Positions 22,913 to 24,651 of a DNA stretch of 34,194 nt are shown here, piece after piece. The translations under genes were made by a program, and so were the position numbers. Under the pieces are notes generated by a model. The model saw only the letters and a list, made by a program, of their open reading frames with translations, was not told the DNA's origin and made no database searches. Numbering within the stretch: position 1 is the stretch's first letter; each line of letters starts with the position of its first letter. The DNA comes from Rhodoglobus sp. (GTDB lineage: Bacteria > Actinomycetota > Actinomycetes > Actinomycetales > Microbacteriaceae): contig JAODLY010000038.1 of NCBI GenBank assembly GCA_025464445.1, positions 1-34,194 of the forward strand. The letters run 5' to 3'.

Positions 22913-23611
22913 GTGACTGATCGCGGCTCTGCCGCAGGGTTGCGGCGCACGGCGAGCATCGACCTCGATGCTTTGCGCGCCAACCTGTCGAGCCTGCTCG
23001 ATCACGACGATTCATTCGTCCTGGATGCCAGGGCTGACGCCTACGGGCACGGCGCCGCAGCGGTGGTCGCGACCGCCCTCGATGCCGGCGTCACGACGGT
23101 TCGGATCTCGCCGAACCAGGCGAGTTTGGTGAGCGCCCGGCGCTCAGCCCTCATGACGGTGCCATCGCGCCGCCGGCTCGTTGCCGGGGAGGCGTACGGC
23201 CTGGATGCATCCCATACGCCGGTCATGACACTTGTCGGTGAGGTCATCTCGGTCAAACCCGCCGAAGCCGGCGCCGGGGTCTCGTACGGCTACAGCTACC
23301 ACACGGAGGCAGACACGATCCTCGCCCTCGTGGCGCTCGGCTACGCCGACGGTGTGCCCCGGCTCGCCTCGAACCGCGCGACAGTGCAGGTCGGGGGCGC
23401 ACTCCACCCGCTCGTGGGCAGGGTCGCCATGGACCAGTTCGTGGTGGACTGCGGCAGCTCCTCGGCGGTCGCCGTCGGCGACGAGGCCGTGCTGTTCGGG
23501 GATGCCGCTGCCGGGCATCCGTTGGCGACAGACTGGGCAGCCCAGACCGGCCGCAGCCCACTCGAGCTGACCGCGGGTATCGGATCGCGCGTGCTGCGGG
23601 TGAGCCGATGA
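22913..23611 (+). CDS. Alanine-racemase-like protein lacking the PLP barrel and PLP lysine (catalytic-Tyr subunit)
   Basis: A 232-residue protein that is clearly homologous to alanine racemase (usually about 370 residues) but internally shortened. It keeps the N-terminal strand/helix (SIDLDALRANL) and the loop DARADAYGHG, where the PLP-binding lysine of the family is replaced by Arg40. About 150 residues of the barrel are then missing. The C-terminal domain is complete: VSYGYSYHTEADTILALVALGYADG with the catalytic Tyr144, and the partner-site motif VAMDQFVVD (Met173-Asp174). The Tyr that contacts PLP phosphate in the family's C-terminal NYE motif is lost (SPLE). Alone it cannot bind PLP normally. 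The stop overlaps the next gene's start by 4 bp (ATGA), so the two are translated together. The frame is intact and not pseudogene-like. The GTG start lacks a clear Shine-Dalgarno. Confidence 0.85.
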   Translation: MTDRGSAAGLRRTASIDLDALRANLSSLLDHDDSFVLDARADAYGHGAAAVVATALDAGVTTVRISPNQASLVSARRSALMTVPSRRRLVAGEAYGLDASHTPVMTLVGEVISVKPAEAGAGVSYGYSYHTEADTILALVALGYADGVPRLASNRATVQVGGALHPLVGRVAMDQFVVDCGSSSAVAVGDEAVLFGDAAAGHPLATDWAAQTGRSPLELTAGIGSRVLRVSR

Positions 23612-24651
23612 GTGAGCCGCGCCTCGAGGTCGACCTCGAGGCGTTCCGCCACAACGTCCGGCTGCTGTCCGAACTTGTGGCGCCGGCGCGCACGATGCTC
23701 GCCGTGAAGGCGAACGCGTACGGTCACGGGCTCGTGCCACTCGCGAAGGCCGCCCTCGAATCGGGGGCGGACTCGCTCGCCGTGCTCGAGGTTCCCGCTG
23801 CGCTCGCGGTGCGCCGTGCCGGGATCACCGCACAGGTATTCGCCTGGCTCCACGGCCCGGAGACCGACTTCGTCTCGGCTATCGAATTCGATGTCGACCT
23901 GGGGGTCTCGGCCCTGTGGCAGCTGGAGTTGATCGTCGCGGCTCCCAAGGGCAAGCCTGCGCGCATCCACCTCAAGGTCGACACCGGCCTGCACCGCAAT
24001 GGCGCGAGCCCGGCCGAGTGGCCTGCCCTCGTCTCGGCCGCGGTAGCGGCGGAGCACGAGGGGTCCGTCGTGGTCGAGGCGCTGTGGTCCCATCTCGCCG
24101 ACGCATCACCCGAAGACGACGCCGAAGCGCTCGCCCGCTTCCACGAGGCAGTGGCCGTCGCCGCTGCGCTCGGCTGCCGCCCGCCGCTGTTGCATCTGGC
24201 CGCGAGTTCTGCCGGCATCCGCGAGCCGGAGGCGAGGCTCGGGCTCGTGCGCTTCGGGATCGCGGCCTACGGAATCTCCCCGTTCGACGACCAATCCGGC
24301 GCCCGGCTGGGGTTGCGGCCGGTGATGGCCATGCGAGCGCCGGTGTCGTCACTGCTCGACGGCGTCGCCACCGTCGGCCTGGGCAGCGCCGATGGCATCC
24401 AGGTGCCCGCGATCGGCAAGGCCCAGGTCGCGATCCGCGGCAGGCGTTATCCGATCCTGGCGCTTGACGTCGACACTCTCACCGTCGACGTCGCCCATTC
24501 GAACATCGCGGTCGGCGACGATGTCACGATCTTCGGCCCCGGAGACGCGGGCGAGGCGACAGCCGAAGAGTGGGCGGCGTGGGGCGAGACCATCGGCGAC
24601 GAGATCGTCGCGCGGGCGAGCGAGCGGCTGCCGCGGGTGTACCTGGGCTAG
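23608..24651 (+). CDS. alr: Alanine-racemase-like protein with PLP lysine but without catalytic tyrosine
   Basis: A 347-residue fold-type III PLP enzyme. The barrel is complete: Lys34 in [10 protein letters not shown] (Schiff base), Arg130 in [10 protein letters not shown], His162 in WSHLADA, Ser201 in AASSAG and Arg215 in VRFGIAAYG, all matching PLP-site residues of alanine racemase. The C-terminal domain is degenerate: the stretch VSYGxTY is deleted, the catalytic GYADG motif reads GSADG (Ser260), and the CMDQ motif reads DVDT. A homodimer would therefore lack the second catalytic base. The upstream partner supplies exactly those parts, and the two genes overlap by 4 bp, so I infer an obligate heterodimer. 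The substrate could be alanine or another amino acid such as a diamino acid of the cell wall. The rox-like gene starts 14 bp downstream. Confidence 0.88.

Follow-up and report, generated by a model that had tools for sequence, protein, structure and literature searches.

Alanine racemase, a target of drugs directed at cell wall synthesis, is known from textbooks as a homodimer. Among other PLP enzymes, serine palmitoyltransferase (LCB1/LCB2) and glycine decarboxylase (GcvPA/GcvPB) consist of one PLP-binding and one lysine-less subunit. As we propose below for two genes of Rhodoglobus sp., a duplicated PLP enzyme has there given paralogues that turned into partners with one working site, but both systems are of fold type I, unrelated to the Alr barrel, and make no D-amino acids.

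In fold type III, sections of two papers on alanine racemases describe each active site as the N-domain of one monomer together with Tyr265' and Met312' of the other, and dimerisation as essential (PMC3245724, PMC3485190); the sharing of Lys and Tyr' between subunits, on which the earlier note on this DNA had relied, agrees with these sections. The two proteins studied here resemble Alr/DadX (TIGR00492, PF01168 plus PF00842) in the fold of both models, in the catalytic residues and in the composite Lys/Tyr' site as outlined in the same sections. However, Alr/DadX enzymes are homodimers with two sites, whereas the pair has its halves encoded separately, which leaves room for just one complete site. 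Bar, Lyr and the VanT serine racemases are of the same superfamily and have the two halves on a single polypeptide; Tyr354 is lacking in Bar and Lyr too, as part of PMC3485190 describes, but the residue there is Ala (Bar) or Thr (Lyr) and not Asp/Glu as in the large protein of the pair and many of its relatives. In the full text of open-licence papers we found no description of a heterodimeric, split or truncated alanine racemase, and among the open-licence alanine racemase papers listed for heterodimer, Tropheryma whipplei or Microbacteriaceae we saw, by title and abstract, no account of a split enzyme.

The two overlapping genes and their genome

The window, i.e. the whole stretch of 34,194 nucleotides that was analysed, is contig C6 of a 2.84-Mb draft genome (57 contigs, 99.6% complete). 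Reading the sequence, we found the coordinates, the lengths and the 4-bp ATGA overlap given in the earlier note all to be exact (Table 1). A scan of 22400-24800 for promoters and terminators found none. Directly downstream of the pair and on the same strand lies a gene for a FAD-dependent aromatic-ring hydroxylase-like monooxygenase (24666-26102; FAD_binding_3, 304.8 bits), and the minus strand carries a GatD/MurT-like pair (26099-28008; GATase_3 and Mur ligase middle domain), a peptidoglycan amidation module. Many relatives, too, have MurT-like ORFs in the neighbourhood of the split racemase.

Table 1. Positions of the two genes and of their key codons in the window.
Feature	Position	Strand	Content or basis
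Putative small subunit gene, 232 aa	22913..23611	+	Start of barrel without PLP lysine, complete Alr C-terminal domain
Putative large subunit gene, 347 aa	23608..24651	+	Complete PLP barrel with Lys34, degenerate C-terminal domain
ATGA overlap, small stop / large start	23608..23611	+	Read from sequence
AGG, Arg40 of small protein, PLP-lysine site	23030..23032	+	Sequence and alignment
TAC, Tyr144 of small protein, catalytic Tyr265' position	23342..23344	+	Sequence and alignment
MDQ motif of small protein, Met312' position	23429..23437	+	Sequence and alignment
AAG, Lys34 of large protein, PLP Lys39 position	23707..23709	+	Sequence and alignment
AGC, Ser260 of large protein, Tyr265 position	24385..24387	+	Sequence and alignment
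GAC, Asp331 of large protein, Tyr354 substrate-pocket position	24598..24600	+	Sequence and alignment counts

The small protein gives a full-length match to Ala_racemase_C (121.5 bits), while Ala_racemase_N reaches just 21.7 bits, under the cut-off, over residues 16-63 and the first 51 profile positions (Pfam). Aligned to the canonical Alr of its own genome, its barrel is gone from about residue 73, VSYG, GYADG (Tyr144) and AMDQ (172-175) are kept, and the 354 position is Leu. Pfam and alignment thus bear out what had been claimed for this protein: Arg40 at the site of the PLP lysine, the greater part of the barrel missing, Tyr144 and MDQ kept. Its AF2 single-chain model (pLDDT 88.3, pTM 0.85) has two barrel strands (13-16, 36-38) and helices 18-31, 48-57 and 67-72, followed by the C-terminal domain.

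The large protein contains Ala_racemase_N in full (189.7 bits over 8-225), and its Ala_racemase_C match begins at profile position 34 (Pfam). By alignment to the same canonical Alr it holds Lys34, Arg130, His162, Ser200 and Arg215, which corrects the earlier list of these residues in the serine alone, placed there at 201. The GSADG (Ser260), the DVDT in place of the MDQ loop and the missing VSYG segment were likewise found as described, apart from the motif used for comparison: the local canonical enzyme reads AMDQ and not CMDQ. The AF2 single-chain model reaches pLDDT 92.6 and pTM 0.90. For either model the ten best Foldseek matches are all alanine racemases (TMq 0.92-0.95 for the large protein), and apart from related racemases (VanT, BsrV) and engineered proteins the 50 listed for each contain nothing but alanine racemases. 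TIGR00492 scores 183.9 bits for the large protein, 125 for the small one and 249.1 for the canonical copy, with a curated cut-off of 168 bits; NF009879, the broad-specificity racemase model, scores 67.4 (large) and 64.2 bits (small) against a cut-off of 434 bits.

In sum, the equivalents of the barrel residues Lys39, Arg136, His166, Ser204 and Arg219 are supplied by the large protein only, and those of the catalytic Tyr265 and of Met312/Asp313 by the small protein only. Since neither protein has both halves of the site on one polypeptide, we file the pair as a two-gene variant and not as a classical Alr.

A complete canonical alr of 365 aa, with lysine, GYADG and MDQ, adjoins glmS on contig C20 of the same genome, so that this genome does not depend on the pair alone; the pair as sole alr of the organism is ruled out. 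The presence of such a gene is one half of what the earlier note itself had named as speaking against its proposal. PF00842 occurs in this genome in the C20 copy and the pair only, and the further PF01168 matches on C10, C40 and C24 are without it. Within the genus of the window, the small gene was found in 5 of 27 genomes at E <= 1e-39 and not in the other 22.

Pairing, conservation and apparent absence of the ordinary gene in Microbacteriaceae

Loci were taken from the matches listed for a profile of eight small proteins against 398 Microbacteriaceae genomes and then for a profile of nine large proteins against 398 genomes. They comprise at least 102 adjacent pairs, window included (92 at a parE/DUF7455/MurT locus, seven at glmS-tsaE and three with an unrecognised flank) and, among the matches listed, at least 12 fused ORFs besides; by hand count, split or fused forms fall under at least 29 genus codes. 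Because the sorting of the 102 pairs used Lys and Met themselves, the non-circular statement is the count over the 188 Alr-type ORFs at parE/MurT-type loci among the matches listed: 92 have Lys without Met and 92 Met without Lys, and the remaining four are three fusions with both and one fragment of a broken large frame with neither (L244). At glmS-type loci among the matches listed, 30 ORFs (complete or fused) have both, seven have Lys only and seven Met only. For partnerless large genes, 32 further loci were fetched, 26 of them parE-type, and a partner was present in 25 of the 26; the sole exception (L276) ends at a contig edge, and for one small gene (L048) the contig breaks off within the partner. 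The earlier note had counted relatives keeping just one of the two genes against its reading; contig-end cases aside, none was seen in the loci among the matches listed. An in-frame start at the exact 4-bp offset is available in 66 of 75 adjacent pairs of relatives, a count in which the script favoured this offset where several starts were possible.

Across the 102 pairs, the small protein carries at its PLP-lysine position Arg in 57, Thr in 12, Ser in 8, Ala in 6, Gly in 4, Asp in 2, Pro in 1 and a gap in 12, and the Tyr265 site of the small protein is Tyr in 95 and Phe in 7. Arg136, His166 and Arg219 are intact in all 99 large proteins readable at all three positions. Of 75 large proteins, 63 show a gap in the VSYG column and three a Val; small proteins keep VSYG and Met. 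At the Tyr265 site the large proteins have Tyr in 38, Phe in 18, Ser in 15 and other residues or a gap in the rest. Loss of this Tyr from the large protein is therefore ruled out as a universal mark, and at the level of sequence the Lys and Met sites are better marks of the split type; the earlier claim that neither homodimer has a complete site stands for the two proteins of the window and perhaps not for all relatives. Between five congeners, mean pN/pS is 0.38 in the small C-domain vs 0.50 in the barrel remnant, and 0.29 in the large barrel vs 0.45 in the large C-domain, rough values given that pS near 0.6 puts synonymous sites near saturation.

Three pairs (L224, L225 and L226, of genomes G085, G159 and G111) have Phe at the Tyr265 site of both partners and no catalytic Tyr left, so that a loss or change of reaction is possible; all three genomes also carry a canonical alr. 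Such a gene was present for all five small-Phe forms checked (of seven; G124 and G427 lay outside the check).

Split pairs make up 20 of 80 named loci, from Leifsonia, Pseudoclavibacter, Pseudolysinimonas yzui, a Schumannella MAG and other MAGs; in one of them (L122) the large frame is broken. The glmS-tsaE loci of Herbiconiux, Subtercola and Planctomonas hold two complete tandem alr copies. No split type was found outside Microbacteriaceae in an order-wide search at E <= 1e-52, a strict cut-off that distant forms could escape: it matched 3 of 396 genomes, all Microbacteriaceae. At two out-of-family loci (G076, G067), the ORFs combine Lys, Tyr265 and Met. A parE-small-large-MurT locus with a small protein 64% identical stands on JABBOD010000021.1 (L116), a MAG contig with the title Acidobacteria bacterium; as this is a Microbacteriaceae-type locus, the title or the binning is probably wrong.

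Among the matches listed, 56 of 74 small-bearing genomes also have a canonical-grade alr (best E under 1e-70) and 18 have none. Leaving out G341 (89% complete, 8% contamination) and G327, G243, G390 and G130, each with a further Alr-type gene at about 1e-60 (L203 in G327), there are 13 genomes in which every PF00842 (Ala_racemase_C) match sits in a split or fused gene. These are G041, G345, seven of genus g101, G415, G288, G361 and G438, with a completeness of 90-100%; an eighth member of g101 (G419) carries two tandem copies, both complete. Ddl was found over its cut-off in all 13 and a D-aminotransferase in none, at a strict cut-off passed by 1 of 14 control genomes; weaker matches exist. 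G041 is evidently Tropheryma whipplei Twist, and its only alr matches (TIGR00492, PF00842) are ORFs of 224 and 386 aa between parE and MurT. To judge from gene content, split or fused forms are apparently the sole source of D-alanine in several genomes.

Fusions, graded first genes and the possible origin of the pair

The fused ORFs comprise nine of order large-small at the glmS locus and three of order small-large at the parE locus (L201, L290, L297). Those at glmS (L196-L198, L200, L202, L205, L207-L209) belong to eight genomes of genus code g97, five of which match named Pseudoclavibacter records, and to G345; they run from barrel over degenerate C-domain and barrel remnant to complete C-domain, and in the five sequences read, Ser takes the place of Lys in the remnant. 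The first genes of the pairs form a series, from a near-full barrel without lysine at six loci (Thr in L043, Ser in L277, L281 and L293, Asp in L289 and L296) over a partial barrel (L283-L285) to a remnant and finally to none. A divergent Alr-type ORF with Lys, Tyr and Met (L203, G327:C1) occurs in a Pseudoclavibacter genome that also has fused and split forms. A single open frame covers the second tandem Alr together with TsaE in L042 (3455-6007) and in L302 (922-3765), likely an Alr-TsaE fusion.

For the trees, 193 barrels and 193 C-domains were used. Barrels were thinned to 87 (72% identity) and, for the careful tree, to 81 (without L138, L049, L055, L203 and the first genes of L255 and L043); C-domains were thinned to 75 for the quick tree and to 85 (78%) for the careful one (without L138, L055, L203, L049, L173, L046, the first gene of L255 and all 'otherAlr' rows). 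In the careful barrel tree, a branch with 100/99 support separates the parE-type large proteins, together with the intact second tandem copies, from the canonical enzymes, the fused forms, the first tandem copies and the glmS-type large proteins; the last two group with each other (95/90). The T. whipplei protein (L049), outside the careful trees, is long-branched in the quick barrel tree and basal to the parE side. Groups were named after the quick tree had been seen, which weakens the AU p values: a topology with parE-type large proteins apart from intact second copies was rejected (p 0.0048), whereas one clade for all large forms (p 0.0595) and glmS large and fused forms united (p 0.22) were not rejected at 5%. 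In the C-domain tree, which is weak with its 128 columns, p was 0.255 for all small proteins in one clade, 0.394 for glmS small proteins with second copies and 0.454 for parE small proteins; in the quick tree, glmS small C-domains go weakly with a second tandem copy (85 SH-aLRT). The tandem copies at glmS-tsaE of Herbiconiux, Subtercola and Planctomonas are both complete, unlike the split pair, and the second shares barrel lineage and Asp/Glu354 with the large subunit.

Based on the barrel tree, position 354 and the placement of the glmS small C-domains, we favour, without regarding it as proven, two reciprocal splits in opposite directions; against this stand the AU p of 0.0595 for a single large clade and possible recombination. 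Because intact second copies lie inside the parE side, a single clean loss does not explain the Met/VSYG side there, which was either lost more than once or regained. A fuller scenario, which we offer tentatively and with rather less than even confidence, is that the two alr products of the ancestor were already heterodimeric and that this dependence let the partners shed opposite halves: at parE, the PLP subunit would descend from copy 2 and the donor of the C-domain from copy 1, and at glmS, in another genus, the roles would be exchanged, with copy 1 giving the PLP subunit and copy 2 giving the donor. The halves would later have fused, some lineages would have lost all their ordinary alr genes, and the parE branch may also have moved to a new amino acid via Asp/Glu354.

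Predicted heterodimer, its substrate and alternative explanations

As the known site is built from the N-domain of one monomer and its partner's C-domain, a dimer of small and large protein would have one complete site and another without lysine and barrel. We think it likely that the two proteins form such a heterodimer of the alanine racemase fold, an obligate one with one composite site. The heterodimeric racemase proposed in the earlier note is thus supported, as far as sequence data reach, by the pairing, the fusions, the opposite conservation and the 13 genomes with split or fused forms only. From the observed residues, conservation, co-occurrence and fusions, we infer the following assembly, activity and order of steps. 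The large subunit would bind PLP in its barrel via Lys34, with Arg130, His162, Ser200 and Arg215, and the small subunit, in effect an Alr C-terminal domain, would supply in trans the VSYG loop, Tyr144 (Tyr265') and Met173 (Met312'). Each heterodimer would thus have one complete site and a second that is dead and structural, and the overlapping frames would cause the partners to be made together. The pair would have arisen by alr duplication in an ancestor within Microbacteriaceae, followed by loss of the lysine from one copy and of the Met/VSYG side from the other and finally by erosion of the idle barrel.

The substrate is a question of its own. According to part of PMC3485190, Tyr354 sets a narrow alanine pocket with Tyr265' and is replaced by Thr or Ala in lysine and broad-specificity racemases. 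Tyr is found at this position in 47 of 48 canonical enzymes, in all first tandem copies (15/15), all glmS-locus large proteins (7/7) and all glmS-locus fused forms (9/9), whereas all 86 readable of the 92 parE-locus large proteins and all 15 second tandem copies have Asp or Glu. Five further complete Alr-type paralogues form a separate racemase branch, with His at 354 (L050, L052, L053, L054; here also with Phe for Tyr43) or probably Asn (L275). Judging from Asp/Glu354, the preferred substrate of the parE-type enzyme may be other than alanine. It should be alanine in genomes without another racemase, and T. whipplei, where a parE-type pair with Asp at 354 is the only alr found and Ddl is kept, implies that alanine should at least be accepted; the organism of the window has retained a canonical alr, and its pair may act on alanine or on a different amino acid. 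It is conceivable, though we would not bet on it, that most of the family forms a real heterodimer for a non-alanine substrate, e.g. for the D-diaminobutyrate or D-ornithine of type B peptidoglycan. Such a shift, which is compatible with the predicted heterodimer, would fit the confinement of Asp/Glu354 to parE-locus large proteins and second tandem copies, the replacement of Tyr354 in the racemases just cited, the canonical-grade alr that 56 of the 74 small-bearing genomes have in addition to the small gene, the position of the locus beside MurT/GatD, and the D-Dab and D-Orn that sections of two papers describe for Microbacteriaceae walls of type B (PMC4156110, PMC5945732). It fits less well with T. 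whipplei, where the pair should make D-alanine, and with a small gene not found in most genomes of the window's genus.

Fold-type III enzymes can be regulated by degenerate paralogues, as in the case of antizyme inhibitor, and with this precedent and the Tyr kept at the 265 site of 38 large proteins, the large protein might be active alone as a homodimer, with the small one as a regulatory or stabilising pseudoenzyme. We hold this to be unlikely: fusions aside, the Met312 site is absent from every large-type ORF at parE loci among the matches listed, the VSYG column is mostly a gap in large proteins and kept together with Met in small ones, the large protein of the window has Ser at 265, and the fusions retain both halves. 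That the small protein instead pairs with the canonical Alr elsewhere in the genome, given the presence of this enzyme and the likeness of the C-domains, seems very improbable to us, as the small gene adjoins the large one in the loci fetched, is fused to it at three parE loci and also occurs in a genome where no canonical alr was found. Lowest of all we rate a decay of both genes as functionless duplicates; both are indeed without parts of the enzyme and patchily present in the genus, but their frames are open, pN/pS lies below 1, conservation is opposite in the two, synteny extends over the 29 or more genus codes of the hand count, and in T. whipplei they are the only alr found.

Gene-by-gene annotation would show the pair as one truncated and one divergent alr. 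If the predicted heterodimer is true, it would offer a clean case of the transition from homomer to obligate heteromer, with living examples of intermediates that have lost the lysine but not the barrel, of end points that no longer have the barrel, and also of fusions and of intact duplicates, and the drug target would be a heterodimer in some bacteria, evidently including Tropheryma whipplei.
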